Both the position numbers and the translations under genes were made by a program. From Spirochaetaceae bacterium 4572_59 (GTDB lineage Bacteria > Spirochaetota > Spirochaetia > DSM-2461), in assembly GCA_002084805.1 (NCBI GenBank), contig NBMC01000016.1, forward strand, positions 1 through 34,138: 34,138 bases of DNA, given 5' to 3'. The notes beneath the pieces were generated by a model. It did not search any database. It was given only the letters and a program-made list of their open reading frames with translations, and was not told the origin of the DNA. How positions within the stretch are numbered: position 1 is the stretch's first letter; each line of letters opens with the position of its first letter. Of the stretch, positions 3,228-31,095 are shown piece after piece.

Positions 3228-3301
3228 CGGAAGCGACGGGCATCGAACCCGCGATCTCCGGCTTGACAGGCCGGCGCGATAACCAGCTTCGCTACGCCTC
3301 C
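3228..3301 (-). tRNA. tRNA-Asp (GTC), copy 2 in transcription order
   Basis: A 74-nt cloverleaf on the minus strand: 7-bp acceptor stem GGAGGCG/CGCTTCC with one G-T pair, 4-bp D stem, anticodon stem CCGGC/GCCGG around loop CTGTCAA (anticodon GTC), 5-bp T stem, and discriminator G as expected for tRNA-Asp. CCA is not encoded. It is identical to the copy at 3408-3481. Confidence 0.95.
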
Positions 3302-3407
3302 AGTATATATGAAGCCCGATAAGGGACATTGTACTGTATTTTGAGGTATACAGAACCTTTTTGCTCAGAGGTTCCCAGCTTATAAGTTAGGAACATTCAG
3401 CTATAAA

Positions 3408-3481
3408 CGGAAGCGACGGGCATCGAACCCGCGATCTCCGGCTTGACAGGCCGGCGCGATAACCAGCTTCGCTACGCCTCC
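3408..3481 (-). tRNA. tRNA-Asp (GTC), copy 1 in transcription order
   Basis: Identical over all 74 nt to the tRNA-Asp at 3228-3301, with anticodon GTC in loop CTGTCAA, discriminator G and no encoded CCA. The two copies are separated by 106 nt of unrelated sequence. It follows the tRNA-Arg by 35 nt, consistent with one transcript. Confidence 0.95.
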
Positions 3482-3516
3482 ATAAAACATTATCCTGTGC
3501 CATCAGTTAAAAATAG

Positions 3517-3589
3517 TACCCCGGGGACGATTCGAACGTCTGACCTGCCGCTTAGGAGGCGGCTGCTCTATCCCCTGAGCTACCGGGGC
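3517..3589 (-). tRNA. tRNA-Arg (CCT)
   Basis: A 73-nt cloverleaf: acceptor GCCCCGG with CCGGGGT (terminal G-T wobble), D arm GCTC/GAGC, anticodon stem GCCGC/GCGGC around CTCCTAA (anticodon CCT, reads AGG), and T loop TTCGAAT. The outermost T-stem pair is an A-C mismatch. CCA is not encoded. It is the first gene of the minus-strand tRNA operon. Confidence 0.93.
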
Positions 3590-8329: not shown

Positions 8330-9688
8330 ATGAATCATGAAATATACGATCCAGATGATATGATTGCCGCATTGGCGACACCCTGGGCGGAGAGCGCTAT
8401 TGCTGTGATCCGCGTGTCAGGTGCCGGTTCCATTGAGGCCGTGGATGCTCTCTTTAGCGGCTCAGTTAAGTTGGCCGGTGCAGAAGCTCGAAAGCTAACT
8501 CTTGGAGTTATCCGTAATCCCGAAACAGAAGAAGCTCTTGATGAGGTTATGGCCGTTCCTTTCAAAAGCCCGGTCAGTTATACAGGCCAGGATGGTTTGG
8601 AACTCTACTGCCACGGTAGTCTGCCGGGGCTGCAGAAAATCCTGAACCTCCTTTTTCAGTCGGGATTCAGGCAGGCTTCTCCCGGCGAGTTCACTTTCAG
8701 GGCTTTTGTAAACGGGAAGATGGATTTGACCCGGGCCGAGGCGGTACAGGAAATTATCAGTGCCAAGTCCGGAAAGGCTCAGTCCATGGCCTTAAGCCGT
8801 CTATCCGGAGCTGTTGAGTCCCGAATCAATACAATGAAGAGTAACGCGCTGGGAATCGCAGCGGCTTTTGAAATACAGCTTGATTATCCCGAAGATGAGG
8901 TGGAAACCCCCGAGACGCCTATGGGGGAGCTCCTTCAGATAAAAGAGGGACTTACGGAGTTAATTGCATCCTATCAGGTCGGCCGCATCTATCAGGAAGG
9001 GGTTGTTGTTGCCCTTGCGGGGCGTACAAATGCGGGCAAATCCTCCTTGTTTAATCTTTTTCTTAAAGAAGATCGCTCTATCGTTTCGGATATTCACGGT
9101 ACAACCCGTGATTTTCTTGAGTCCTGGATCTCTCTGTCAGGAATTCCCGTTCGTCTGTACGATACGGCGGGTCTCCGGAAGTCCGATGATCCCATCGAAG
9201 AAGAGGGAATCCGACGTACCAGACAGGTTCTGAAAAACTCCCATGTGATCCTTTATCTCCTTGATGGAGAGGCTGGTTTATCCGAAGATGATGAGGCTGT
9301 TCTGGCAAGGGCTGATAACAAACGTGTTGTGGTTTGGAATAAGGCCGATATTGCTTCACAGCCCTGTCCTGAGGGTGCTGTCCCTGTCAGTGCTGTGAGC
9401 GGAAAAGGCTTTCAGGAATTGGAAAAAGTTTTAAAAGATAAAATTTTTCATGACTCTTCTACAACGCAGGACGGTCCCGTTATTGATTCTCTTCGACAGA
9501 AAAACCTCCTTGAACGGGCATTATACGGGGTTGATAAAGTTATAGAGGGAATTCATAATGGCCTTCCCGTCGATATTTTAGCGATGGATCTTTCCGAAGT
9601 TCTTCAGGCTCTGGGTGAAATTACAGGCGAAGTTTCCTCTTCGGATATTATGGAGCAGATGTTCTCGAAATTCTGCGTAGGGAAATAA
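8330..9688 (+). CDS. mnmE: tRNA uridine-34 modification GTPase MnmE
   Basis: With MnmG this GTPase builds the (carboxymethyl)aminomethyl group at C5 of wobble uridine 34 in several tRNAs. The 452-residue length is normal. The N-terminal tetrahydrofolate-binding domain starts with DMIAALATP. The G domain, set inside a helical domain, has G1 GRTNAGKSS (about 231-239), a TTRD switch, G3 DTAG and G4 NKAD. The C-terminus ends in FCVGK, carrying the conserved catalytic Cys. AGGAGA (8304-8309) is far from the ATG at 8330 (about 20 nt). In between, a six-codon frame (8313-8333) has its TGA overlapping the mnmE ATG. mnmG follows after 6 nt. Confidence 0.96.
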   Translation: MNHEIYDPDDMIAALATPWAESAIAVIRVSGAGSIEAVDALFSGSVKLAGAEARKLTLGVIRNPETEEALDEVMAVPFKSPVSYTGQDGLELYCHGSLPGLQKILNLLFQSGFRQASPGEFTFRAFVNGKMDLTRAEAVQEIISAKSGKAQSMALSRLSGAVESRINTMKSNALGIAAAFEIQLDYPEDEVETPETPMGELLQIKEGLTELIASYQVGRIYQEGVVVALAGRTNAGKSSLFNLFLKEDRSIVSDIHGTTRDFLESWISLSGIPVRLYDTAGLRKSDDPIEEEGIRRTRQVLKNSHVILYLLDGEAGLSEDDEAVLARADNKRVVVWNKADIASQPCPEGAVPVSAVSGKGFQELEKVLKDKIFHDSSTTQDGPVIDSLRQKNLLERALYGVDKVIEGIHNGLPVDILAMDLSEVLQALGEITGEVSSSDIMEQMFSKFCVGK

Positions 9689-11566: not shown

Positions 11567-12173
11567 TGGATTGAAGCAACTTGGGCTGAATCAGGATGAT
11601 CAGAAGATCAGAGTGCTGGATCGCTATGTTAAAGAAATCGAATTATGGAATCCCCGTTATGGTCTTGTGAATGCGAAAGGGGATCAACTGATTATCAGGC
11701 ATATTCTGGATTCTCTGAGTGGTGTCTCTCTGCTAAAAGACTTGAAACCCTCCTCTGTGGCAGATATCGGATCCGGGGCCGGACTGCCCGGAATCCCACT
11801 GGCCATTTTTCTGCCGGATGTTCAGTTTAGTCTTGTGGAACGGTCAGGTAGACGGGTCAGTTTTTTGCAGAATGCTGTATTAGCTCTCGGTCTGAAAAAT
11901 GTTACTATTGTGGAAAAAGCCATGGAAGATCTTAAAAATCAGTACGATGTGATAACCTTCAGGGGGTTTTCGCCTTTCAGTAGAGATCTTCTGGGTCATC
12001 TGGGGAGAATCCTTGCTGAGAATGGTTGTGTCGTAGCCTATAAGGGGAAAAAGAGGCAGATCAACGAGGAATTGAATCAGCTCGATGAGTCGGAAAATAG
12101 AAAGATAAAGATAATTCCTGTGTCAGTGCCGTTTCTGAAAGAAGAACGCCATATGGTTACAATGAGCCTTTAA
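11553..12173 (+). CDS. rsmG: 16S rRNA (guanine-527-N7) methyltransferase RsmG (GidB)
   Basis: A SAM-dependent methyltransferase that modifies G527 of 16S rRNA. At 206 residues it is a normal length. The family signature NPRYGLVNAKG and the following RHILDSLS precede the SAM-binding motif I VADIGSGAGLPG (about 69-80), then a VERSGRR motif and an ITFRGFSP segment. AGGAG at 11540-11544 lies 8 nt before the ATG at 11553, inside mnmG, so start and translational coupling are well supported. The 3' end overlaps the convergent TPR gene by 17 bp with no terminator between them. Confidence 0.95.
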   Translation: MLINDGLKQLGLNQDDQKIRVLDRYVKEIELWNPRYGLVNAKGDQLIIRHILDSLSGVSLLKDLKPSSVADIGSGAGLPGIPLAIFLPDVQFSLVERSGRRVSFLQNAVLALGLKNVTIVEKAMEDLKNQYDVITFRGFSPFSRDLLGHLGRILAENGCVVAYKGKKRQINEELNQLDESENRKIKIIPVSVPFLKEERHMVTMSL

Positions 12174-13533
12174 GAGTCTGTGGGTTACTTTTCATATTAT
12201 CCATCAGCTTAACCAGTTTGCTCTTGGGAAATAGGTCAATCAGACGGGCCTCTACAAACTTTTCCGCCTCTTCCGTAAAATTACCCGCACTGAGGCAGAA
12301 TCCTCGCCCCGCGTGAACTTCTTTTATATGAGTATATAGCTCCCGGACTGAAAGATCTCCGATATTTCCCTCTTCCCGGTAGAAACGGAAAAGGATCAGG
12401 TCTTCCCATTTTCGGGCTTTTACCTCTGCCAGAATATCAATGTACTCATTTTTGTTTACAGATATATCCATTACTTTTATCCTGGTTTTCGGGAATAGTA
12501 CAACGGTCAAACGGCGGCATAGAGTAATAAATTCACTGACAGGAGCCATCAAATAGGTCTGTAGGTTTTGATTAGAAGTGAGTTCTCGGATCTTTTTTCT
12601 CTGTAGATCCGCATCCTTGTATTTGGGATTAATTTCGTAGATATCGTTCAGTTCTGAAAGAGCTTTCTCAAGTTGAGAAGATAGATTGTAGCAATCGGCT
12701 AAGCGGTACTTCAGTTCCAAAAGGATGTCGTTTTTTATCTGCTTATGCTTCAGACCGATTTCAAAATCCATTATAGCCAGTTCATATTCTTTTTTCTGCT
12801 TATTGATGGTTCCGCTGAACAGGGCGGACCGGGGACCCCATTCCGGATCCGGTCTCAGGTGAGAGAATATTTTTACAGCTTGATCGTGCTGCCCTATTTC
12901 GTAAAGAGAACGGGCCAGACAGAAAAGTACTTCCTTGTCATCGGGGTGACCATTTGCCGCATTACGCAGATAGGGGGCTGCCTCATTGAATTTTCTGAGT
13001 TTGAACTTACAAAGGCCCATATGTCTCAAGCTTTCATAGTGGTTATGTTCTTTCTTCAGTGCCAGGTTTAAAAGGCTGATGGATTTTTCATAATTACCCC
13101 GTTTAAATTCCAGAATTCCCAGTGAGGAATTTATATCAAAATTTTCCTGATCTGTTGTCCTGGCTATGGTCAGACTCTTGTAGGCTTCGGTCCAGACCTT
13201 AGCGTTCATGGCAGAAAGACCAAAGCGGAAGTTTATGCTGTCTTCGTTGAGGTTCGGGTTTGTAGCACAAAGTTCAAGAAGAATTCCGTAGGTTTTCATA
13301 GCCTGCAGGTAGTTCTGTTCGGAATATTGAAGGTCTGCTAGGGCTGTCAGGGCCTGAGTATCCTTAGGATTACTGGCAAGCCTTTTGTTTGCTTCCTTCA
13401 GGATTGTATTTCTATCCTGTACTTTTTCTCCGCCCAGAGTCTTTTTGTTGCGGGAAGACAGTGCTGTTGCTAAAATTATCACAGCGATAGTAATAATCAA
13501 TAAGGGTATTAAAAGAGGTAAATAGTTCACCAT
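12157..13533 (-). CDS. Membrane-anchored TPR protein with degenerate Mrr-like C-terminal domain
   Basis: A 458-residue protein. Residues 5-25 form one transmembrane helix with positive residues after it (SSRNKK), so the bulk should be cytoplasmic. Residues ~45-330 carry TPR-like helical repeats (for example YEKSISLLNLALKKE and FNEAAPYLRNAA). From ~355 the pattern YIDILAEVKA, then VRELYTHIKEVHAGRGFCLS and NFTEEAEKFVEARLIDLF, resembles the Mrr-type restriction endonuclease fold, where such proteins sense or cut DNA. The Q/E-x-K catalytic element of Mrr appears replaced by LILFRF, so nuclease activity is doubtful. It is convergent with rsmG. The start at 13533 has no Shine-Dalgarno. The fold assignment is by pattern only. 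Confidence 0.75.
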   Translation of the reverse strand: MVNYLPLLIPLLIITIAVIILATALSSRNKKTLGGEKVQDRNTILKEANKRLASNPKDTQALTALADLQYSEQNYLQAMKTYGILLELCATNPNLNEDSINFRFGLSAMNAKVWTEAYKSLTIARTTDQENFDINSSLGILEFKRGNYEKSISLLNLALKKEHNHYESLRHMGLCKFKLRKFNEAAPYLRNAANGHPDDKEVLFCLARSLYEIGQHDQAVKIFSHLRPDPEWGPRSALFSGTINKQKKEYELAIMDFEIGLKHKQIKNDILLELKYRLADCYNLSSQLEKALSELNDIYEINPKYKDADLQRKKIRELTSNQNLQTYLMAPVSEFITLCRRLTVVLFPKTRIKVMDISVNKNEYIDILAEVKARKWEDLILFRFYREEGNIGDLSVRELYTHIKEVHAGRGFCLSAGNFTEEAEKFVEARLIDLFPKSKLVKLMDNMKSNPQTLKGSL

Positions 13534-19446: not shown

Positions 19447-20244
19447 ATGCTGGATTTGTCATTTTTTGAATTTTATGAAACAGCTGATGACATTAAACTC
19501 TCGTCACTACGTTTTTTTCTGGGAAGACGTCTTTCCCTCTATCTCTATATCTTTAAAATTCTACGGCGTAGCAGAACTCTTTCTCTAAGGGGCATATTTT
19601 CAGACCGCTTATTCTGGGATGCCTCTGACAAGATGAGAGAAGCCATAGAACTTCATGGTGGTAAGTTCCACATCAGCGGTTTACAGAACCTGCAGACCCA
19701 AGGACCTTTTGTTGTGGTTGTCAATCATATGGGGGTTGTGGAAACACAGTTGATGCCCTGGATTATCGGTTGTTATTCACCCCTTTCCATGGTAATGAAA
19801 GATAGTTTATACAAGTCCTGGTTCTTTGGCCCTATTGCCGAGGCCACAAAGAGTATCGCCGTTTCTCGACAGAATTTGAGAGCGGATATTGATGTCATTA
19901 TGAAAGATGGTGTGAAATATCTCTCTAAGGGACGTTCTATTGTTCTATTTCCCGAAGGGACCAGAAAGGATTACTTCTGTCGGAAAGAATTTAACTCTCT
20001 GGGAGAAAAACTGGCTGTAAGAGCTGGTGTTAAGATTGTTCCTGTTGCTGTGAAAACTGATTTTCTGGAAGCTGGTAAGGTGAACTCCTATTTGGGGCCC
20101 ATAATTCCGGAAAGAACAATTAAAATCTCCATTGGCGAGCCTGTTGCTGTTGAAGGACGGGGCAGGAAAGAGCATGAGCAAGTCCTGGATTTTATTGAGA
20201 CAAAGATGAAAGAATGGGGCGTGCCAGTAAAGGAGAATTCATGA
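19447..20244 (+). CDS. PlsC-family 1-acyl-glycerol-phosphate acyltransferase
   Basis: A membrane-associated acyltransferase of the PlsC/LPLAT fold, probably acylating lysophosphatidic acid or a related lipid at the inner membrane. The 265 residues contain the catalytic block NHMGVVE (H94, with E99 in place of the usual D of the HX4D motif), FPEGTR at 168-173 and a later VPVAV strand. Start ATG 19447 has GGAG about 10 nt upstream. Its TGA overlaps the ATG of the carbonic-anhydrase-like gene, suggesting coupling. The HX4E variant is tolerated in some family members but could alter substrate. I do not assign plsC as such because paralogues are common. Confidence 0.85.
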   Translation: MLDLSFFEFYETADDIKLSSLRFFLGRRLSLYLYIFKILRRSRTLSLRGIFSDRLFWDASDKMREAIELHGGKFHISGLQNLQTQGPFVVVVNHMGVVETQLMPWIIGCYSPLSMVMKDSLYKSWFFGPIAEATKSIAVSRQNLRADIDVIMKDGVKYLSKGRSIVLFPEGTRKDYFCRKEFNSLGEKLAVRAGVKIVPVAVKTDFLEAGKVNSYLGPIIPERTIKISIGEPVAVEGRGRKEHEQVLDFIETKMKEWGVPVKENS

Positions 20245-20777
20245 TTTATAAACTGAATGGGAAAGTTCCGAAAATTTCCGGAAAGGTCGGATTTATTGCG
20301 GCTTCTGCAGATATTATCGGAGATGTTTCTCTGGATGAAGGTGTAAGCATCTGGTTTAATGCTGTTCTGCGGGGAGATCTGGATGAGATCCGGATTGGAG
20401 AAAACAGTAATATTCAGGATTGTGCTGTCGTTCATACTGATAAGGGTTATTCCTGTCAGGTCGGGAAAGCTGTCACTGTAGGACACGGTGCTGTGCTCCA
20501 TGGTTGCAAAATAGGGGATAACTGTTTAGTCGGTATGAATTCGGTTGTATTGAATGGCGCGGAAATTGGAGATAATTGTCTCATCGGAGCAAACAGCCTG
20601 GTTTCTCAGGGGGCAAAGATTCCTTCAGGATCTTTGCTTCTTGGTTCTCCGGCTAAAGTTGTTAAAGAATTGAAACCTTCTATGATTGAGGCTATTCAAA
20701 GCAATGGGATGTCCTATGTAAATAATAGTTCGAATTATCTGGACACATTGAAAGAGGCAAAAGAATTATTGGAATAG
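20241..20777 (+). CDS. Gamma-carbonic-anhydrase-like hexapeptide-repeat protein (YrdA/PaaY family)
   Basis: A left-handed beta-helix protein of 178 residues with hexapeptide repeats (DIIGDVSLDEG, IGDNCLVGMNSVV, IGDNCLIGANSLV). Three His at 65, 82 and 87 (VVH and GHGAVLHG) match the zinc ligands of gamma-class carbonic anhydrases. The family may hydrate CO2 or act on CoA compounds; activity often cannot be told from sequence. The frame extends upstream to 20214, but AGGAG (20231-20235) is 5 nt before ATG 20241, which overlaps the PlsC stop as ATGA, so 20241 is the start. Its 3' end overlaps the convergent short gene by 43 bp. Confidence 0.88.
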   Translation: MIYKLNGKVPKISGKVGFIAASADIIGDVSLDEGVSIWFNAVLRGDLDEIRIGENSNIQDCAVVHTDKGYSCQVGKAVTVGHGAVLHGCKIGDNCLVGMNSVVLNGAEIGDNCLIGANSLVSQGAKIPSGSLLLGSPAKVVKELKPSMIEAIQSNGMSYVNNSSNYLDTLKEAKELLE

Positions 20778-20917
20778 TTTTTTCTATTATTCAGGCTCTC
20801 TTGGTCCTGCTGCTTTTCCATGGCAGCCAGGTCCAGTAGCTTCTCCATATTTTCAACGGATGAGCTAAGTAAAAGTTTTCCTTCATAAATGTAAAAATAT
20901 TCAAAATTGTAACGCAT
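20735..20917 (-). CDS. Possible small protein, 60 residues
   Basis: A minus-strand frame starting MRYNFEYFYIYEGK and continuing with an acidic helical stretch (SSVENMEKLLDLAAMEK). It has no Shine-Dalgarno, but TATAAT (20929-20924) lies 6 nt before its ATG, like the leaderless-type arrangement seen elsewhere here; a -35 is lacking. Forty-three bases overlap the end of the carbonic-anhydrase-like gene on the other strand. No family recognised. It may be a chance frame. Confidence 0.4.
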   Translation of the reverse strand: MRYNFEYFYIYEGKLLLSSSVENMEKLLDLAAMEKQQDQESLNNRKNYSNNSFASFNVSR

Positions 20918-21006
20918 ATTAACATTATAGTTCTATTTTTTGAACTTCCCTCCGAAAACATATGTTTTTTTATGAATTTCTTTAATATGCTGTAAAGTCC
21001 CGGGCT

Positions 21007-21370
21007 TGTGGAAAACTTGTTTATAAAATTGAATTAAACGGGCTTAGATCAAATTTATTCTTTTTTCTCCTGTGGATAAGTTGGGGGAAAAATTTTATAG
21101 ATGTGTATAACAAGCTGGAGATTTCACGGTATTGAGAGTGAAATCCTCTGTAAATACTTGGGTTCTATCCTTTTCCATTCATATATAAGTGATAAATCAG
21201 GTAAAATCAGAGTGTTTTCCGAAAAATGCAGGAATTAACCGATTTAAAAGACTACTTTTACAATTACCACCAGGTTGTGGATAAATTGTGGATTAAAATT
21301 TTATAACCATGTATTTGAGGGCTTTTATAACTTTTATTCAGGAAGAAGTCTGTGGATAACCCGTGAATAA
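21007..21370 (+). other. Cluster of DnaA boxes in an AT-rich intergenic region
   Basis: Three perfect boxes TGTGGATAA (21071-21079, 21276-21284, 21351-21359) and three with one mismatch (TGTGGAAAA 21007-21015, TGTGTATAA 21102-21110, TGTGGATTA 21287-21295) all point the same way. A weaker CGTGAATAA is at 21362-21370. Two boxes start 11 bp apart, about one helical turn. AAAATTTTATA occurs twice (21089-21099 and 21295-21305), each near a box, like AT-rich unwinding elements. The flanks are a short minus-strand frame and a plus-strand membrane protein gene; dnaA and dnaN are not in the window. It may be an origin, a DnaA-titrating or reactivating site, or a DnaA-controlled promoter for the recCBD unit. 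Confidence 0.8.
21117..21148. repeat. Inverted repeat inside the DnaA-box region
   Basis: GATTTCAC (21120-21127) and GTGAAATC (21138-21145) are perfect 8-bp inverted arms around a 10-nt spacer, with weaker pairing extending outward. No T-run follows, so a protein-binding site is more likely than a terminator. Confidence 0.5.
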
Positions 21371-21380
21371 TGAATTGCGC

Positions 21381-21409
21381 TTGATGGCTTTTCCATGCTA
21401 TTTTATAGA
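21381..21409 (+). promoter_or_regulatory. Promoter ahead of the membrane protein/recCBD unit
   Basis: TTGATG at 21381-21386 and TATAGA at 21404-21409 are 17 nt apart. A start near 21416 lies ahead of the AGGAG at 21426-21430, supporting the start codon at 21437. The nearest perfect DnaA box ends 22 bp upstream of the -35. Confidence 0.45.
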
Positions 21410-21436
21410 CCTAATACTAATTCTCAGGAGATATTA

Positions 21437-21883
21437 ATGAGACGGCAAAATTCCGGTATGACTTCTATATTCTTCTTACAGCTTGCGGTTGCACTTTTTT
21501 TTCTAATTCTGGGACTTCAGGGGATCATGTATTCCGTTTCTCAGAATACTGGCTTTGCCAGGGAGGTCGCACAGTTCTTTAATTCTGAGTATCCTGCGGT
21601 TCATAATATGGAGCTGATTTTCGGTATTTTCAGTATGGTTGCGGGTATTCTGCTTCTGCTGGGGCTTTTTCGATTTGGAGATTCCCGTCTTGTCACAGTC
21701 TCTTCGGTACTGATTTTTATATTCTGGCTGGTTCGCCTTGTTATGATGCGTTTTATGACAGAGCTTGTTATTTCCAATGGAAATATTTCCTTTCAGCCTG
21801 ATCTTTCCGAATGGCTTCTGAATGTCTCCAGAGATACAATTATCCTGTGTTCTATCTGGACCCTGGCCCGGCGGGTAAGGTAA
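21437..21883 (+). CDS. Small integral membrane protein
   Basis: A 148-residue protein with about four hydrophobic segments (around residues 10-30, 60-80, 85-105 and 130-145), separated by short polar loops, and a basic C-terminus (ARRVR). The frame opens at an earlier ATG (21395), but AGGAG at 21426-21430 with 6-nt spacing marks ATG 21437. I do not recognise the family. It is 24 nt upstream of recC, so it probably leads the same transcript, though no functional link with recombination is evident. Confidence 0.75.
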   Translation: MRRQNSGMTSIFFLQLAVALFFLILGLQGIMYSVSQNTGFAREVAQFFNSEYPAVHNMELIFGIFSMVAGILLLLGLFRFGDSRLVTVSSVLIFIFWLVRLVMMRFMTELVISNGNISFQPDLSEWLLNVSRDTIILCSIWTLARRVR

Positions 21884-21907
21884 GCAATCATAGACAGCCC
21901 CAACAAT

Positions 21908-24900
21908 TTGTCCGCTTATCATATCTATCAGAGTAATTCTCTTGCCGGTCTGGTTGAGGAATATTCCGATTTTCTGACCCCATCCAGCCTGTTCGACGAT
22001 TCTTTATGTCTGATTGTGCAAAACAGAAATATGGGTGAATGGCTGAAGCTTAAGCTTGCCGCACATCGAGGGGTCAGTGCGGATTTCAACTATGTTATGC
22101 CAGAGAATGCTCTGCGGGATTTCTGCAGCGGCTACTCCTCCGCCCGTAAACTCATAGGGGAGGAAGGAGGGGGTAAACCTGTTCTCTTTCTGGATAATCT
22201 GAAACTTATCCTCTTTAAAACCCTTGAGAATCTTCAGGATCCTAAACACGGTGCTGATCCGGTTTTTCAGGAACTCTTCAGATATGTAGGGGCCGCCGAC
22301 CCCGCTGAGGAGAAGGATATTCCTCCCGTCAGGTCTGCACGGCTGTACGAGTTGGCCGACAGCATTGCCGGTCTCTTCTATCATTACGGTATGAACTGCC
22401 GGGATCTCATTACTCCCTGGGAACGGGGGGATTCCTTTCCGGATATGCCAGTACATCTGAAAAAGCATGAAGTTTGGCAGAAAAAACTCTGGAATATCCT
22501 GTTTCATCCCGGACAGCCCTATCTGCATCTCAGTCAGCTCCTGTCAGAAGCTATGCAGGCGGGAGACTCTTATGATGGCAGGATAAAACGGGTTGTTCTT
22601 TTCGGTTCGTCCTTTCTGGGTGATACGGGTCTGAACTTTTTTTATCATCTTTCCAGGGATATTCGTGTTGATCATTTTATTCTATCTCCATCTTCTGTCT
22701 ATTCAAACTGGAACGGAGAGGTTCAGAATGCTCTATTGAGCAGCTGGAGCACCCTTATAGGCGGTTTTGCCACTCTTTCCGGGACGTTCGAAAATGCAAG
22801 TCATCAGAATGAATACAGTCATGCTCCGGGGAACTCTCTTCTGGCTTCCCTTCAAAATGATATTCTGGATAACAGGCAGATTACGGATAAAACAGCTGTT
22901 ACCGGGGATGACAGATCTCTTCAAATCCATACCTTTACCTCCTGCTGGCGGGAAATCGAGGTTCTGAAGGATCTGATTCTGGATGCTTTAAACCGGGATA
23001 ACTCTCTGAAGCTTACGGATATCTGTATACTGGCTCCTGATATCAACGAGTATGCCCCTTTCTTCGAGGCTCTGTTTCCGGTCTATGGTGATATTGCTCC
23101 CCCGCGGGATCATCTTCCCTATAATATTGTTGATCTGGCAGGATCTGAGGATTCCCCCTATATACAGGGATTTCTCCACTTATTTACTCTTCCGGGAGAA
23201 CGGTTCAGCCGCCGGGACCTGTTTCTTCTTTTTGACAATCCCTGTTTTTGTGATACCTTCCAAATCAATAGACAGGAGCGTGATTTCTGGCTGGACCTTT
23301 GCGAAGAACTGAATATTAAATGGGGACTGAACAAAAGTCATAAGCAGAGCTTTTATGGTGAAGCCAGTGATTTTAACTCCTGGGAAGAGGGCTTCAGGCG
23401 GCTTCTGGATGGGTTTTTTCTGGAGGAAGAGGATGATGAGGGCCTGCCCCGGGGACTGTCTGATGAAACGGGAAATCAAAGTGCCGGTAAACTGATTGCA
23501 CTGACAGAGAATCTTTTTAATGATCTCTATGAACTGAACAGGATCTCCCTCCCCCTCAAACAATGGATACTCCTAGCCGAGGCGATGATGGAAAGTTATA
23601 TCTCCGTTAGGGAAGGAAACCGTCAGGATCAGAAAGATCGCTGGCGATTAAAGGGAACTTTTCGGGATCTTCTGACTCTGTCGGAAGATTCCGTCATGCC
23701 TGCGACTGTTTCGGATGATCTGGATTTTACGGTCTTCAGAATTCTTTTAACAGAGTTTATCAGTAAATCTGGAGGAGAGCGTGGTCGTTATCTGACCCAG
23801 GGAATTACCTGTTCTTCCCTCAAACCACTCCGAGCTATTCCTTTTAGACGGGTTTATGTACTGGGCCTGAACGAAAGTTCTTTTCCAGGTGAGGACATTC
23901 AGCTGAGCTTTGACTTGAGGGAAGTTGTTCAACAGACAATTGATCTTTCAAGACGGGGGAGTGATAAGTATGCCTTCCTGGAGACGCTCCTGTCTACAGA
24001 AGACGCTTTGACTCTTTTCTATAATGATCGTGATCCCGTAAGGGGAGAGACCCTGCAGCCCTCCATTATGATCAGTGAGCTGATGGAGTATCTGAATCTG
24101 AACTACTCCTTTCCCGGAGATGTTCCCGCTGAGGAATATCTTATTCACAGAGAGTCTATACACGATTATGATGTGCGCTACTATAATGGCGAGGCTGGTT
24201 TCTACTCCTTTAACAGGCCTGCGTTGAAGAGTGCATCCATTGCGGTTCATCCTGTTACGGAAGAGCCGCTGTCTATGGACTTGAGTCAGGACGAAGGAAC
24301 GATACAGGATTTACTGACAATTCGTGATCTGGAGCAGTTCCTGAAAAATCCTGCCTCCTACTATTTCAGAAAATCTCTGGCGGTGTATCTGGAAGAGGAG
24401 GAGAACCGGGAAGAGGATAGTCAGGAGAACTGGGAGTCGGACTTTCTGGACCGCTACCGCTATCTCTACAACTCTCTGGATGATCCCGGATCGCTGTGTA
24501 ATACATCATCATTAAAGAGTTTTCTGGAGGATCAGCAGAAACGGGGAATCCTTCCTGATTCCCAGCTGATTTTTCTGGAAGAGGATTTTTATACAAGACG
24601 TCTGGAAGAGATGGGGAAACAACTGGAAGAGAAGGGTCTGCAAAATGGCCTGCCTTCCGCTCGTGACTATCTGATTGCTCCCGAAGAGGCCGCCGGACTG
24701 AGTTTTCGGGATGAAGGGCTACACCCCTCTGTTCTTGTTCCACGCCTTGTTCTGGATCTGGATAATGGAAGATCTGTCCGTCTTTCGGGGATTCTTGAAG
24801 AGTTAAGTCCCCTTCCGGAAGGACAGAAGCTGTGGGGAACCATGGAGTATTGTGAGTCGGGAAAACCTTCTGTGCGGCACTATCTTAAATCCTTCCTGAA

Positions 24901-25387
24901 GGCTCTTTTCCTTGATGCGCTGAGCCGGCAGGGGTATGTGGAAGAGTTTGCTAGCCTTCGTCTCTATCAGCTGGGGAAACGTTCGTATCCCCTTCTGAAC
25001 TATGATCTGAATCCCTCTCCGGGAACGGTTGAATCCGGAACAATTCCGCTGAATGCTGCTGATAAGAGGATTCGCCGGATTGTCCGCCTCTGTCTGGAAC
25101 ACAAGTATGAACCTGTCATGCTCTATCCCGAGCTGGGTGAGGTTCTGGGACAGGAACTTGCCGCACAGCCCCATATGGGAGATGATGAACTTCTCAAATT
25201 GTGGAAGCAGAACTGGGAGAAACTGGCCCAGTCCGATTCCTTCCGGGGATTCAGTCCTTTTGCTTCCTGTCCCTACCGGAAACAGTTTCTCTCAAATCCT
25301 CCTCAAACGGATCCGGATCGGCTCCGGGAGCTTCTTGAAACTATCTATCTCCCATTTTGTATAAACGAGGTTCGTGATGAATTCTGA
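21908..25387 (+). CDS. recC: RecBCD exonuclease V subunit RecC
   Basis: The RecC subunit recognises Chi and holds the split DNA strands in the RecBCD helicase-nuclease for double-strand break repair. At 1159 residues it is a normal length. The N-terminus (YHIYQSNSLAGL, then CLIVQNRNMGEWLKLKLA) matches the conserved RecC opening; the LTQGITCSSLKPLRAIPFRR and VYVLGLNESSFPG motifs are also typical, and the C-terminus is nuclease-like but inactive in the family. The start is TTG 21908 with no clear Shine-Dalgarno; upstream codons back to a TAA at 21881 include no ATG, GTG or TTG. It overlaps recB by 11 nt. Confidence 0.93.
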   Translation: MSAYHIYQSNSLAGLVEEYSDFLTPSSLFDDSLCLIVQNRNMGEWLKLKLAAHRGVSADFNYVMPENALRDFCSGYSSARKLIGEEGGGKPVLFLDNLKLILFKTLENLQDPKHGADPVFQELFRYVGAADPAEEKDIPPVRSARLYELADSIAGLFYHYGMNCRDLITPWERGDSFPDMPVHLKKHEVWQKKLWNILFHPGQPYLHLSQLLSEAMQAGDSYDGRIKRVVLFGSSFLGDTGLNFFYHLSRDIRVDHFILSPSSVYSNWNGEVQNALLSSWSTLIGGFATLSGTFENASHQNEYSHAPGNSLLASLQNDILDNRQITDKTAVTGDDRSLQIHTFTSCWREIEVLKDLILDALNRDNSLKLTDICILAPDINEYAPFFEALFPVYGDIAPPRDHLPYNIVDLAGSEDSPYIQGFLHLFTLPGERFSRRDLFLLFDNPCFCDTFQINRQERDFWLDLCEELNIKWGLNKSHKQSFYGEASDFNSWEEGFRRLLDGFFLEEEDDEGLPRGLSDETGNQSAGKLIALTENLFNDLYELNRISLPLKQWILLAEAMMESYISVREGNRQDQKDRWRLKGTFRDLLTLSEDSVMPATVSDDLDFTVFRILLTEFISKSGGERGRYLTQGITCSSLKPLRAIPFRRVYVLGLNESSFPGEDIQLSFDLREVVQQTIDLSRRGSDKYAFLETLLSTEDALTLFYNDRDPVRGETLQPSIMISELMEYLNLNYSFPGDVPAEEYLIHRESIHDYDVRYYNGEAGFYSFNRPALKSASIAVHPVTEEPLSMDLSQDEGTIQDLLTIRDLEQFLKNPASYYFRKSLAVYLEEEENREEDSQENWESDFLDRYRYLYNSLDDPGSLCNTSSLKSFLEDQQKRGILPDSQLIFLEEDFYTRRLEEMGKQLEEKGLQNGLPSARDYLIAPEEAAGLSFRDEGLHPSVLVPRLVLDLDNGRSVRLSGILEELSPLPEGQKLWGTMEYCESGKPSVRHYLKSFLKALFLDALSRQGYVEEFASLRLYQLGKRSYPLLNYDLNPSPGTVESGTIPLNAADKRIRRIVRLCLEHKYEPVMLYPELGEVLGQELAAQPHMGDDELLKLWKQNWEKLAQSDSFRGFSPFASCPYRKQFLSNPPQTDPDRLRELLETIYLPFCINEVRDEF

Positions 25388-28300
25388 CTTGCCTTTCAAT
25401 CCTGTAGAGGCAGACCTCCTTCAATCGGTAAGGCTTGAAGCTTCTGCCGGTACGGGAAAAACCTATAATCTTGAACGGGTGGTGGGGGAACTGATTGCCC
25501 GCTATGAAATCCCTCTGAACCGGATTCTGATCGTCACCTTTACCAACAAGGCCGCCAGAGAGCTGCGAGAGAGAATCCGCCGCATTTTAAGTGAGCTTTC
25601 CCGTCCTGATTCAGGGCGTAGTGAACAGGAAATCCGTCTCCTTAATGAAGCCCGTCATAACTATGATCAGGCCGCAATCTATACGATCCATGGTTTCTGC
25701 CAGCATGTACTGCAATCCTACCCCTTTGAGTCGGGCTCCTCCTTTCATCAGGAATTTTTGAGTGACAGCTCTCTTGTGGAGGAGGGTGTTCGTGACTTTC
25801 TCTACAGCCGTTTTCGTCGGATCAAGGCGGAGGATATGGACCTGATCAGAGGTTTTTTGAAGAAAACTTCTATTAAGGAAGCCATTGCCCGTCTTGTCCG
25901 GGTTACCGTGGAGGAGATGGATTCGGAAGATCTGATTCTGATTCCTCCGGAAGGACAGATGCAGCAGGTTCTGAAGGAAGTCAGGGATTTTAAAAATCAG
26001 AAAGGGGATGTCTTTGATGCTGTTTCGGCCCTGAGAGAGTGTTGCTGGAACAGTGATGATATTCTGGCTATCTTTAAGACTCTGAAAACAAGACAGCAGT
26101 CCTCTACGGCTGTTAAAATCGCTAATGTGGGGAAAGAGCTTTCTGCTGCCCCGAGTCTGCCGGACTGGATGGACTGGTTTTTTTCAAAACAGGATGATGT
26201 CGGAGGGATCCCGTCGGAACTTCTATTGAATCTGAGCGAACATATTCTGGAAGAGAAATGCGGAAAGGGCTGCTCCCCGGATGAGCTTCCCGATAAAACT
26301 CTGATCCTTTGTGTCAGCAGGCTTTTTGAAGCATTAGAACCCTTCTGTGATGGAGAGAACTCTTCCAGGGGAGTTCATAGGCAACTTTTGGGATATGCCT
26401 TTATGAGAGAGGCCGTGAGTGGCGCCCTTCCCATCATCCGTGATAAAAAAAAGATTCGTGGTATGCGGGATTTTTCCGACCTGATCAGGGTGCTTCATGA
26501 GAACCTGACTTCCGATGCTGATGGTCCTCTAGCGCTCACCCTGCGTCAGAAGTACCGGGTTGCCCTGGTCGATGAGTTCCAGGATACCGATAGGATGCAG
26601 TGGGATATATTCCGTATTCTTTTTGACCGGGAAGATCATAACTACTTTCTGATCGGTGATCCCAAGCAGTCCATCTACGGATTCCGGGGAGCGGATCTAT
26701 CGGTCTATTTTGAAGCCTGTGAAACCGTAAAGACGGAGCATCGTTACTCCTTGGGAACCAATTACAGATCACGGAAAGAGCTTGTGGAGAGCTGTAACTA
26801 TCTCTTTGAACGCTTATTCTCTCTGCCTGCCAGGGGAAATCGTCCTGTCCCGTTTCAGCCTGTTGTCGCCGCCGGGAAGAAAGGGGCTGTCCCCCGTGAT
26901 GGTGGAGATCAGCTTCTCCCTGCACTGACCATCTGTGAAATTCATACAGGAAATGATAAGGATATTGAGAATAAGGAAAATCTGAAAAATGCCTGGATGA
27001 AGGATATTGCCCTTCGAATGGATGCGCTTCTGTCCGGAACAGCCAGCCTGGAATCAATGGGAGAAAAAAGAAGCATACAAGCGGGGGATATGGCTGTTCT
27101 TATGGACACGAACCGGGATTGTGAGACCATGCAGCTGCGACTGGAGGAGAGGGGCATCTCCTCTGTTATCTATAGTGATCGAAGGGTTCTGGATTCTCCA
27201 GAGGCGGATCTATTTGGACTCTTTCTCAGATGTCTGGCCCATCCGGCTGACCAGAGCATTCTGGCCTCCCTGCTTATTTCTCCGGTATTTCATCTCCCCG
27301 TAAGGGATGTGAAGACACTGGAACAGACGGATCATCTGGATCAGATCCGAATCCTCTTTCATAACTGGCGGGATACCACCGATAGGGGAGGTCTGATACG
27401 GGTTTTTCATATCCTTTTTGAACAGGAATCTCTTTTGCCCGGGGTCGAACTGAAAGACTCCTGGAAGAACAGACTTCTCAGGCAGAGAAATGGAGATCGG
27501 AGCTGTACCAACCTGCTTCACCTGGCGGAACTCTTTCACCGGGAACAGAAAAACAGAACCCTGGATGCCCGGGGTATTTTTGATCACTTTATTAAAATGA
27601 AAAACGATCCAAGCCCCGATGACCAGAGACAGGTCCGACTGGATAAGGATGGAGAAGCTGTACAGATCCTGACCCACCATTCCAGCAAGGGACTGGAATT
27701 CCCCATTGTCTTTTTCTGCGGAGGGATGCAGGACGGTTCTGTGGGGCAGCGGACGGATCTGACCTATTACTGGGAGGATAAACGCTACAGGGACTACCTT
27801 TTAACATCAGATTCCCGGAAGAAGGCGGCGCTTTCAGACTGGGAGGAGCGGAAAAGGCTCTATTATGTTTCTTTGACGAGAGCGTCATCTCTGCTCTATC
27901 TTCCTTTTTTTCTGCAGGGGGATTTCTGCTATCTCACCAACATCTATGGGGCTCTCTGCAAAGAGGAGCTGGTACAGGGAGAAGAGGATTCTTTGCTGAA
28001 GGATCTTCCTCTCTGTGAACAGTGGCCTCTTCATTCGGAAGTAAAGTGGAAAAAAAGCGGAGGAATCAAGAAAAAAAAGGCTGCCCTTAATGAGCGGATG
28101 TCCGGTCTTCTGGTGGATCTCGGCCAGAGTCATCCTTCTCTATTTCAATACTCCCCGGCTGAAAGACCGGATGATGCTAATCTACTCCTCTTTCCCGAAA
28201 CTTCCGGGCTTTCCACCGTAGATACTGGAGAGCTTCTTCACGCAGCGGAATGGCAGACTGACGCTCCTTTCTATAAACGGATTATCTCTGTCGGGAGTTT

Positions 28301-29132
28301 TTCATCTCTTTCTGCAGGAGCCCACGGTTACACAGAAGATATCCTGCTGGATGATGCCGACAGGGATGATGTTGATGATGGAGGGGATATACCTCCCGAG
28401 GACCTTTCGGGTCCTCTCGGACTAAGCCGTGGGGCAGAGTTTGGGAATCTGGTTCATCATATCTTTGAAACCATAGATTTCTCTTGGGCAGATCTTAGTC
28501 CGGAGCAATGGTTTGAAAACAGTCCGTTCGGGCTCAGCGAGCAGGAGGTCTTTCTGGAGGCAGCCTCCCTTCGTTTTTTTGATCAGAACTGGTGGCTTGA
28601 GTCCCGCAGGGCTTTAGGCGAGATGATCTGGAATGTATTGAACTGCCCTTTAGTTCATACGGGAGTCATGAAGAATCTGAAAGAAGAAGACAGAAAGCAT
28701 GAGTTGGAGTTTCTTTTCAGGATTAACGAATCCTCCCGCATAAAAATGAAAGAGTGGACCGTACCTGTAGCAAAGGGCTACCTGAAGGGATATATCGATC
28801 TTATTTTTCGCTGGGAGGGAAAGCTCTATATTGCCGACTGGAAAACAACTGTCCCCGCAGGACGGGGCATTTTGAGTGATTATGATACAGAGAAGCTCTC
28901 ACAGACTATGCATACTCATCTCTATGATGTACAGGCCATGATCTATGTTCAGGCACTGCGGCGCTATATGCTTAGTCTTGATCCCGATTTTTCCTATGAA
29001 AAGGATTTTGGAGGGGTTTACTACCTGTTTGTCCGTGGGATGGGAGAAGATGGATCCCGGGGGGTCCATTTTACCAGACCCCAAGAGGAGGAGCTGGAAC
29101 AGTTCCTGAAAGGAAGTATCGACTATGCATAA
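25377..29132 (+). CDS. recB: RecBCD exonuclease V subunit RecB (helicase and nuclease)
   Basis: A 3'-5' superfamily-1 helicase with a C-terminal nuclease that resects DNA ends and loads RecA. The 1251 residues include Walker A ASAGTGKT (22-29), motif Ia FTNKAARELRER, motif II VDEFQDTD, motif III GDPKQSIYGFRGAD, motif IV LGTNYRS and motif V HHSSKGLEFP. The nuclease site IDLIF followed by ADWKTT keeps the D and D-x-K residues. The frame opens at GTG 25374, but ATG 25377 is better spaced from GAGG (25367-25370). The start overlaps the recC end and the stop overlaps the recD start. All catalytic motifs look intact. Confidence 0.96.
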   Translation: MNSDLPFNPVEADLLQSVRLEASAGTGKTYNLERVVGELIARYEIPLNRILIVTFTNKAARELRERIRRILSELSRPDSGRSEQEIRLLNEARHNYDQAAIYTIHGFCQHVLQSYPFESGSSFHQEFLSDSSLVEEGVRDFLYSRFRRIKAEDMDLIRGFLKKTSIKEAIARLVRVTVEEMDSEDLILIPPEGQMQQVLKEVRDFKNQKGDVFDAVSALRECCWNSDDILAIFKTLKTRQQSSTAVKIANVGKELSAAPSLPDWMDWFFSKQDDVGGIPSELLLNLSEHILEEKCGKGCSPDELPDKTLILCVSRLFEALEPFCDGENSSRGVHRQLLGYAFMREAVSGALPIIRDKKKIRGMRDFSDLIRVLHENLTSDADGPLALTLRQKYRVALVDEFQDTDRMQWDIFRILFDREDHNYFLIGDPKQSIYGFRGADLSVYFEACETVKTEHRYSLGTNYRSRKELVESCNYLFERLFSLPARGNRPVPFQPVVAAGKKGAVPRDGGDQLLPALTICEIHTGNDKDIENKENLKNAWMKDIALRMDALLSGTASLESMGEKRSIQAGDMAVLMDTNRDCETMQLRLEERGISSVIYSDRRVLDSPEADLFGLFLRCLAHPADQSILASLLISPVFHLPVRDVKTLEQTDHLDQIRILFHNWRDTTDRGGLIRVFHILFEQESLLPGVELKDSWKNRLLRQRNGDRSCTNLLHLAELFHREQKNRTLDARGIFDHFIKMKNDPSPDDQRQVRLDKDGEAVQILTHHSSKGLEFPIVFFCGGMQDGSVGQRTDLTYYWEDKRYRDYLLTSDSRKKAALSDWEERKRLYYVSLTRASSLLYLPFFLQGDFCYLTNIYGALCKEELVQGEEDSLLKDLPLCEQWPLHSEVKWKKSGGIKKKKAALNERMSGLLVDLGQSHPSLFQYSPAERPDDANLLLFPETSGLSTVDTGELLHAAEWQTDAPFYKRIISVGSFSSLSAGAHGYTEDILLDDADRDDVDDGGDIPPEDLSGPLGLSRGAEFGNLVHHIFETIDFSWADLSPEQWFENSPFGLSEQEVFLEAASLRFFDQNWWLESRRALGEMIWNVLNCPLVHTGVMKNLKEEDRKHELEFLFRINESSRIKMKEWTVPVAKGYLKGYIDLIFRWEGKLYIADWKTTVPAGRGILSDYDTEKLSQTMHTHLYDVQAMIYVQALRRYMLSLDPDFSYEKDFGGVYYLFVRGMGEDGSRGVHFTRPQEEELEQFLKGSIDYA

Positions 29133-31095
29133 GGGGAAAATCCGGGGACTCCGCCGTTTTCTCGAACTGAAATCCGTCCGGGAGACTCCACCGAAACAGC
29201 TTTGGAGTCGGATGAGTAATCCTAATGCTGAGGGGGACTTTATGCAGAAAGCCCTTTTGACCGGTTCGGAAAGCTATCAGATCTATGGAGCAGTCCATAT
29301 GGTGGGGCGTTTCGGGGCGTCCCGCGAAGCTTGGGAGAAAAAACTGCTTGCCTGGCTGGTTCTCTATATTCTCAATCAGTCCGGGAACGGTCATATCCGC
29401 ATTTCCCGGGAGGATCTGATGGAGGACTTTCCCCTCTGGCTCAAAGGGGCCTCTGTCAAAATTCCTGAAGATCACAAAGAGTCCTATCTTTCGGATATCC
29501 TCTCCCGCAATGAGCGGCTTTTTGCTTCTCTCCCGGAGGGAAGAGCTCCTATTGTCATTTCAGCGGATGGCGAATCTTTTTATCTGCTGAAACGATGGCG
29601 CTATGAACAGCGCTTTCTGCAGCTTCTGGAAGCTCTGATCGGAGAGAAGGGACATTGTCTCTTTCCCGGATGGGAGAACCCCCGAACTGCCCTGGAAGAG
29701 GCTTACGGCTTGCTCAGTCAAGATCCTTCTCTTTTGATGGGGCCGGAAACCCTGCAGGCGGCGGAAATGACCTCCACCCGGCTTCTCTCAGTTATTACCG
29801 GAGGTCCGGGAACGGGTAAAACAACCCTCCTGGGTGGAATGCTCCGGCTTCTACTGGAGGCCGGTCACAGTTCGGGAACCCCTCCTCTGAATATCCGTCT
29901 CTGCGCTCCTACGGGACGGGCCGCAGGCCGGATGGAAGAGAGCTTACAGGGAGTTCTTCATGATCCCTCTTATGAATCTTCCTTTCCAATAGCCCCCTGT
30001 ACTCTTCATAAACTCCTGGGACTGGTCCCGGGATCTCCTCCGCGGTTTAACCGGAACCGGCCTCTTTCTGCTGACCTTATTGTGGTGGATGAAGCTTCCA
30101 TGGTGGATCTGAATCTGATGTACTACATTCTTGATGCCCTGCAGCCGGGAGCCAGGCTCCTTCTGCTGGGAGACAAGGATCAGCTGCCTTCCGTAGAAGC
30201 GGGTGCTCTGCTTTCGGACTTTCTTCATGGACTGGGACATCCTGCTTACGCTCTTGAAGGTGGCGTTCTGTCTCTCTCCCGGGTTCATCGTAACAGCGGT
30301 GCTATTCTGGAAGGTGCGGGGCTGATTATCCGCGGCGAAACGGAAGAGTTTCTGAGCTTTCTCGGGCAGCCCGCTAGAAAAAAAGACAGAGATGGCAGGA
30401 GATCAACAGAGGATTCAGAGGGGGACGGATTATTCTTCTATCAGGATATCCCTGATTTTCCCAGCTTTCTTGATAGCATGGGGAAGGAGTTTGGTCTGAA
30501 AGAACTGAAGAATAAGATCCCGCCCTTCAACTGTCCCGTCAGTCATTGGGAAGATCAGCGGGAGGAAATCAACAGCTACTTTCAGCTCTTTCGTGATAGG
30601 GTTATTCTGGCTCCCTCCCGGAGAGGGCTTTTTGGTATCAACTCTCTTAACCGCGCCCTGAGTGCGCATATTGCAGAGGGAGAAGGGCCTGTTTTTCATG
30701 GACAGCCCATTATGATTACTCGTAATGATTATGAACGGGATCTTTTTAATGGAGATAGGGGTGTCGTTCTGACATTCAACGGGCAGTCCTTTGCCTTTTT
30801 TGAAGACTCCTGCGACAAGGGCTTCCGTTTCTACCCTGTATCGCTGCTGGGAGAGTATCAGACAGCCTTTGCCCTGACCATACATAAGAGCCAGGGGTCG
30901 GAATACGGACATGTCACTCTTATTATTCCGGAGGGGGTGGAAAGGCTTCTGTCCAGAGAAATTCTCTATACAGGGATTACCCGGGCCAGAGAACAGGTGC
31001 ATCTTATAAGCCGGAGGGAATTGATGGAACGTTCTCTTTCCCGGGGGGTCCGGCGTCATTCGGGTATTCGTGAGTTTATGTGCAGACCCTTATAA
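29125..31095 (+). CDS. recD: RecBCD exonuclease V subunit RecD (5'-3' helicase)
   Basis: The fast 5'-3' motor of RecBCD. The 656 residues contain Walker A GGPGTGKTT (about 226-234), motif Ia CAPTGRAAGRM, TLHKLLGL, Walker B VVDEASMVD, motif III GDKDQLPSVEAG, and C-terminal motifs V and VI in TIHKSQGSEY and YTGITRARE. The ATG at 29125 overlaps the recB TAA by 8 nt. A charged insert (about residues 412-432, ARKKDRDGRRSTEDSEGD) sits between the helicase domains. No terminator is obvious within the 81 nt before the next gene. Confidence 0.95.
   Translation: MHKGKIRGLRRFLELKSVRETPPKQLWSRMSNPNAEGDFMQKALLTGSESYQIYGAVHMVGRFGASREAWEKKLLAWLVLYILNQSGNGHIRISREDLMEDFPLWLKGASVKIPEDHKESYLSDILSRNERLFASLPEGRAPIVISADGESFYLLKRWRYEQRFLQLLEALIGEKGHCLFPGWENPRTALEEAYGLLSQDPSLLMGPETLQAAEMTSTRLLSVITGGPGTGKTTLLGGMLRLLLEAGHSSGTPPLNIRLCAPTGRAAGRMEESLQGVLHDPSYESSFPIAPCTLHKLLGLVPGSPPRFNRNRPLSADLIVVDEASMVDLNLMYYILDALQPGARLLLLGDKDQLPSVEAGALLSDFLHGLGHPAYALEGGVLSLSRVHRNSGAILEGAGLIIRGETEEFLSFLGQPARKKDRDGRRSTEDSEGDGLFFYQDIPDFPSFLDSMGKEFGLKELKNKIPPFNCPVSHWEDQREEINSYFQLFRDRVILAPSRRGLFGINSLNRALSAHIAEGEGPVFHGQPIMITRNDYERDLFNGDRGVVLTFNGQSFAFFEDSCDKGFRFYPVSLLGEYQTAFALTIHKSQGSEYGHVTLIIPEGVERLLSREILYTGITRAREQVHLISRRELMERSLSRGVRRHSGIREFMCRPL

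Follow-up and report, generated by a model that had tools for sequence, protein, structure and literature searches.

Upstream of the recCBD genes of Spirochaetaceae bacterium 4572_59, we found an array of predicted DnaA boxes that belongs to a conserved module: head-to-tail box pairs that lie outside of the replication origin (oriC) and keep a fixed gene neighborhood in much of the family. The array is probably a DnaA-binding control site that tunes initiation, like the DnaA-box clusters of Bacillus subtilis or datA of Escherichia coli, and it may help to set the time at which chromosome copying starts. To our knowledge, how DnaA is restrained in bacteria outside of a few models is largely open. 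In a partial collection of the literature on DnaA boxes and spirochaetes, no title or abstract described such sites. A short module of recognizable geometry, present at the same neighborhoods in many Spirochaetia, offers exact sites to delete, and it might link replication control to the RecBCD operon.

A box array upstream of recCBD

The window (the whole stretch of 34,138 nucleotides that we analyzed) is contig C17 of the host genome, which has 93 contigs and 3.29 Mb. A sequence-only reading of the window had reported three exact and three one-mismatch DnaA boxes in one orientation within about 350 bp, and no other exact box. Both statements were confirmed by scanning the window and rechecking the letters: the six boxes are all on the plus strand at 21007-21359, and the exact box, TGTGGATAA, occurs in the window at 21071, 21276, and 21351 only. 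The scan placed a one-mismatch box (TGTGGAAAA) at 21007-21015, an exact box that aligns with boxes of the relatives at 21071-21079, and another one-mismatch box (TGTGTATAA) at 21102-21110. These are followed by a tandem pair with an 11-bp period at 21276-21295 (the exact box at 21276 and TGTGGATTA, with one mismatch, at 21287), which aligns with the pairs of four other members of the genus (G001, G002, G004, and G005). A second tandem pair, at 21351-21370, joins the exact box at 21351 to a weak partner with two mismatches (CGTGAATAA at 21362), and this partner moved the end of the array out to 21370. The whole array, which we call array A, thus spans 21007-21370 on the plus strand, as judged from the window scan and the comparison with the family. 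It has four box units with spacings of 64, 205, and 75 bp, which is less regular than the usual form with two pairs.

Across the window, there are 19 sites with at most one mismatch to the DnaA box, versus 8.1 ± 2.7 expected, and 100 shuffles all stayed below 19. When the window was simulated 400 times with a second-order Markov model, the maximum number of same-strand boxes per 364 bp was three (in six runs), versus the six observed, and tandem pairs with at most two mismatches never arose, versus the two observed. The host genome contains 64 exact boxes (61 of them outside of the array), as compared to eight matches for the reversed pattern, and nowhere but at the array do three of the listed boxes fall within 300 bp. 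We found no support for helical phasing in the spacing of the pairs (p = 0.06 for array A and p = 0.98 for 43 other spacings, using a list that was collapsed by hand).

The sequence-only reading also described a repeated element and an inverted repeat. Both are present: the AAAATTTTATA repeat has copies (D3) at 21089 and 21295, 206 bp apart, and there are inverted repeats, although imperfect ones, with arms GATTTCAC/GTGAAATC. However, both the repeat and the arms are missing from the array regions of all five other members of the genus and are therefore not core parts. Short repeated elements (CCTACC...GCAATAACATTGC) lie next to array A in two of these genomes, G002 and G005 (loci L017 and L019).

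To the left of the array are plus-strand genes for an acyltransferase (AcT) and a hexapeptide-repeat protein (HEX) at 19447-20777, and to the right is the plus-strand recCBD unit. The large flanking genes are therefore on the plus strand, as had been claimed, but a minus-strand ORF of 60 amino acids (MRYNFEYFYIYEGKLLL..., 20735-20917) lies between HEX and the array and is divergent from the array. This ORF has no Pfam match, but it has relatives in four genus members, with 63-74% identity over the first 35 residues. Just behind the array, the alignment of the genus reveals a putative plus-strand promoter (TTGCGC, 18 bp, TATTTT; 21375-21404). It is followed by TM162 (21437-21883, plus strand), which lies between the array and recC and encodes a hydrophobic protein with no Pfam match. 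We reassigned the start of TM162 from 21395 to 21437, at an ATG behind AGGAGA, as in the relatives; a scan for related loci with TM162, at relaxed settings, returned one locus only. Then come recC (21908-25387; PF04257 and PF17946), recB (25374-29132; UvrD helicase domains and a PD-(D/E)XK nuclease), and a recD-type helicase gene (29125-31095), all on the plus strand. In the window as a whole, the only RNA elements that Rfam identified at the gathering threshold are three tRNAs, and we rejected an RNA element as an explanation of the array; the tRNA genes are on the minus strand (3228-3589), amid a mostly plus-strand region. A minus-strand protein next to rsmG (12157-13533) combines TPR repeats with an Mrr-type restriction-endonuclease domain.

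Copies of the module in the family and the class

The sequence-only reading had proposed looking for conservation upstream of recC in related genomes, and we found it. Of the 26 genomes from the family, 18 carry array A: 6/6 from the host's genus (g1), 2/4 from g4, 3/3 from g5, and 7/9 from g6. Two g4 genomes could not be assessed and the array was not found in two g6 genomes (G011, G012, G017, and G019 in all), because of contig ends or because the genes were not found; many of the genomes are fragmented. RecC was found in 23 of the 26 genomes; it is 49-52% identical within the genus and 27-45% identical outside of it, and long matches were at most 52% identical, and the exceptions are a 79-residue piece at 56% and a side piece at 23%. 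In all 12 genomes that have both features on one contig, the array is upstream of recC and co-oriented with it, at a distance of 0.35 to ~9 kb. In 17 mapped genomes (all but G001), array A lies beyond an EF-G/x234/x164 block and its boxes are on the coding strand of the block, as far as the block fell within each stretch.

Most commonly, the array consists of two box pairs 215-239 bp apart, each arranged head to tail with an 11-bp period. This range holds for 14 of the 15 array A loci other than the window in our table of spacings, the exception being G005 with 180 bp, and for G001 (235 bp), which was measured separately; in G003 the array is reduced to a single cluster with two pairs 54 bp apart. 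In alignments of the relatives, the boxes and their spacing are kept and the sequences of the spacers are poorly conserved. Allowing two mismatches, the tandem pair TGTGGATAANNTGTGGATAA has 93 matches in 24 of the 26 genomes, versus three for the reversed control. Across the 18 arrays, 67 boxes are forward and three are inverted (at most one mismatch; the count is biased, as the arrays had been chosen by their same-strand boxes). There is one inverted box in each of G005, G018, and G020 and none in the other 15 arrays, including the host's.

Two genera depart from this pattern. In g3 there are no boxes, and at 3/3 loci the next gene after AcT is a TP_methylase (rsmI-like) gene; in g2, degenerate boxes lie between AcT and a gene that resembles TM162 by eye (L180). 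The array is thus dispensable, which counts against a role in control.

Of 248 Spirochaetia genomes sampled at a minimum completeness of 90, 177 contain the pair motif, versus 13 control matches by our own count among the matches listed. We examined its context in 15 + 16 genomes (20 stretches each) that were chosen for having matches. The resulting table of spacings has 70 rows from loci that were taken because they held pairs, so it is not an unbiased sample, and it leaves out G001 array A and the host's array B, whose pairs are below the cut. The window and L167 are each entered twice in this table, L207 (a STAS copy) carries the label of array A, and L162 (a copy upstream of dnaA) carries no class label. 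Outside of the host's family, double pairs are found at three places: directly upstream of dnaA (172-245 bp apart), after jag, and in the STAS/aroA region. The jag-type neighbor (c226) has Jag_N, KH, and R3H domains, and within the host's family, G014 also has the after-jag copy. The copy linked to recC was seen in the host's family only, among these contexts chosen for having matches.

In 16 genomes of the family, including the host, the STAS/aroA copy is flanked by STAS/TrC and AroA genes that converge on it. Its distance to dnaA or dnaN is ~10 kb in the cases in which one stretch covered both. In the host, this copy is array B (L010:8561-8784, on contig C54), which is ~11 kb from dnaA between convergent TrC and AroA. 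TTGTGGATAACTTGTGTAAA occurs in it at 8561 and 8765, 204 bp apart, and the array has counterparts in the 15 other genomes. In G048, the STAS copy would be ~113 kb from dnaA if the single contig is circular, which suggests that this copy follows its genes and not the origin.

Origin, reactivating site, or promoter

We ruled out that array A is the main bidirectional origin, in agreement with the sequence-only reading, given the position of dnaA and the GC skew. The host's dnaA is on another contig (C54). In G001, which belongs to the same genus and is a single contig of 4.01 Mb, dnaA is at 3.1185 Mb and the GC skew switches from -0.10 to +0.10 between 3.116 and 3.124 Mb, with the reverse turn at about 1.30-1.42 Mb. 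(The skew was sampled in 40 stretches of 20 kb, and single stretches are noisy: 3.2 Mb is negative and 3.0 Mb is positive, against the trend.) The equivalent array of G001 is at 3.4488-3.4491 Mb, which is 331 kb from dnaA, or ~15% along the arm, and it lies in positive skew. Neither there nor in the window, where the skew is positive throughout, does the skew switch at the array. The nearness of mnmE-mnmG-rsmG, which had been mentioned as a mark of origins, does not mark the origin here. Upstream of dnaA, both the host and G001 have one clear pair, an inverted box, and further single boxes, but no clean double pair. The DnaA-trio motif, as described in an excerpt of PMC8287927, was judged too degenerate for scoring in AT-rich DNA.

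A secondary or backup origin would share some features with the array. Two tandem pairs 172-245 bp apart also lie in the region upstream of dnaA (presumed oriC) in other families of Spirochaetia, and relative to its local surroundings, array A is on average almost as enriched in AT as oriC (0.11 versus 0.15, with some rows mislabelled); the g5 arrays reach 85-88% AT in 60 bp. However, array A is far from dnaA, the skew in G001 is positive on both sides of it and switches at dnaA, and it is 57-68% AT in six genomes, as compared to 77-80% for the regions upstream of dnaA in the host and G001, which also contain an inverted box. We consider a backup origin to be extremely unlikely. We think it very unlikely that the array is a DARS-like site, at which the ADP on DnaA would be replaced by ATP. 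Like E. coli DARS1 and DARS2, which are in the promoter regions of uvrB and mutH (PMC5835720, in excerpt), it is a box cluster beside DNA-repair genes, but in the DARS core, boxes I and II have opposite orientations (PMC8682772, in excerpt), whereas every box of the host array points in one direction, with no inverted box at up to one mismatch, and just 3 of 70 boxes across the 18 arrays are inverted. As for a chance clustering of AT-rich box-like words, the exact boxes number only three, but the Markov simulations and the conservation in 18 of 26 genomes contradict this explanation, and its probability is close to nil.

Another proposal is that DnaA, bound at the array, acts on the TM162-recCBD operon as an activator or a repressor and so links the repair of double-strand breaks to replication status. 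In the host's genus, the array is adjacent to and upstream of the putative promoter: it ends just before TTGCGY-18-TATTTT, which is kept in 5/6 genomes (G005 departs in both hexamers), and the TM162 start just behind the array is kept in 6/6. The co-orientation with recC in all 12 genomes with both on one contig also favors this proposal, and DnaA is a transcription factor in Borrelia, where it binds at replication genes (excerpts of PMC9879097). A generic sigma-70 scan of 20700-22000 returned five promoter-like sites, versus 3.8 expected, and the TTGCGY-18-TATTTT site was not among them. Outside of the genus, the setting is different. At 7/7 loci of g6, AcT and UGD233 converge on the array, with their 3' ends facing it (ORFs were itemized for three), and the array is not upstream of a recCBD promoter; AcT abuts the array, and UGD233, a gene with a UDP-glucose dehydrogenase N-domain, is overlapped by it in G025. 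In the one g4 genome whose ORFs were itemized (G010), an opposite-strand ORF of 81 amino acids separates the array from recC, and the start of the K334 gene is on the other side of the array; in g5 it is upstream of the K334 gene. In G014, other genes occupy the ~9 kb between the array and recC. The predicted module is kept while its promoter neighbors change. A DnaA-controlled promoter for recombination genes, as the sequence-only reading suggested, is thus possible in the host's genus, but because the array sits between convergent genes in g6, this is not its general function, and we view the proposal as rather doubtful.

Probable DnaA control from outside of the origin

Of the roles that had been suggested for the array, a titrating or regulating site fits best, while a reactivating site is unsupported, given that there are no opposed boxes. 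The host's DnaA carries GRDHTTV, which we take to be the box-recognition signature. There was no second protein with a Bac_DnaA domain at E ≤ 0.001 in G000 (the host), G002, G003, or G005, and hence no candidate for Hda in these genomes; G001 and G004 have weak extra Bac_DnaA matches of an unclassified kind. YabA was not found above the cut-off in the 26 genomes of the family (G017 has one match below it). Together with the binding of box pairs, the phenotype of the B. subtilis clusters, and titration in E. coli, these findings favor a titrating or datA-like role.

Several other observations support the control site: the conservation of the array in 18 of 26 genomes even though RecC is at most 52% identical; spacers that drift while boxes and spacing are kept; the excess of the pair motif over control matches (93 versus 3) and the one-way orientation of the boxes (67:3, a biased count); and the convergent-gene settings of both the g6 array and the STAS/TrC-AroA module. 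In E. coli control regions, boxes are likewise kept while spacers drift (PMC4585315, in excerpt). Excerpts of PMC11317965 report that DnaA in E. coli prefers, in vivo, pairs of boxes 2-3 bp apart as the bound unit, which also supports this reading. Against it, the 61 other exact boxes in the host genome could titrate DnaA anyway, the array of the host's genus lies beside a putative promoter, and array A is not at a constant distance from oriC (331 kb in G001 and ~77 kb in G014, the two genomes for which this distance is known).

Like the DnaA-box clusters of B. subtilis, the array has several boxes clustered outside of the origin. A B. subtilis strain that lacks six such clusters initiates early, according to the excerpted part of a review (PMC5295017); the same part states that none of the clusters in that species is known to have a significant role, which counts against the control site. 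The array differs from those clusters in its tandem pairs, conserved spacing, and conserved loci, and in being from another phylum. It resembles E. coli datA in being a non-coding cluster of DnaA boxes outside of oriC. No IHF site of the datA type stood out beyond chance: the exact consensus, taken from excerpted literature, is in 1 of 18 arrays (G004), and the window has 17 matches with at most one mismatch, versus 22 expected; one of the 17, at 21282, falls on the boxes, which is no more than chance would give. Much of the DnaA titration in E. coli is due to datA, DARS1, and DARS2 (PMC12371093), and the density of boxes rises towards the origin, with pairs 2-3 bp apart as the bound unit (PMC12371093, PMC11317965; both in excerpt). 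The present array comes from a different phylum and is described here at the level of sequence.

If the array is a control site, then DnaA would bind each box pair cooperatively. In G001 and G014, the module is in the origin-proximal part of the replichore, so it would be doubled early after initiation and would then draw DnaA off oriC by titration. It might also promote the hydrolysis of DnaA-ATP, as datA does. Either activity would help to restrict initiation to a single event per cycle. In the host's genus, where the module abuts the putative TM162-recCBD promoter, DnaA binding may also couple the expression of recBCD to the level of DnaA; such coupling would be a lineage-specific addition.

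More broadly, we tentatively propose that the Spirochaetia have a DnaA control circuit with two to four copies of a double-pair module (pairs ~150-280 bp apart), located upstream of dnaA, after jag, in the STAS/aroA region, and, in this family, at recCBD. The extra copies could set the timing of initiation in genomes without detected Hda or YabA (as checked in this family), and the recCBD copy could tie break repair to DnaA. Several genomes of the family have a further tandem pair on the other side of dnaA/dnaN, ~5-8 kb upstream (L134:9044, L155:9447, and G001:C1:3112966).
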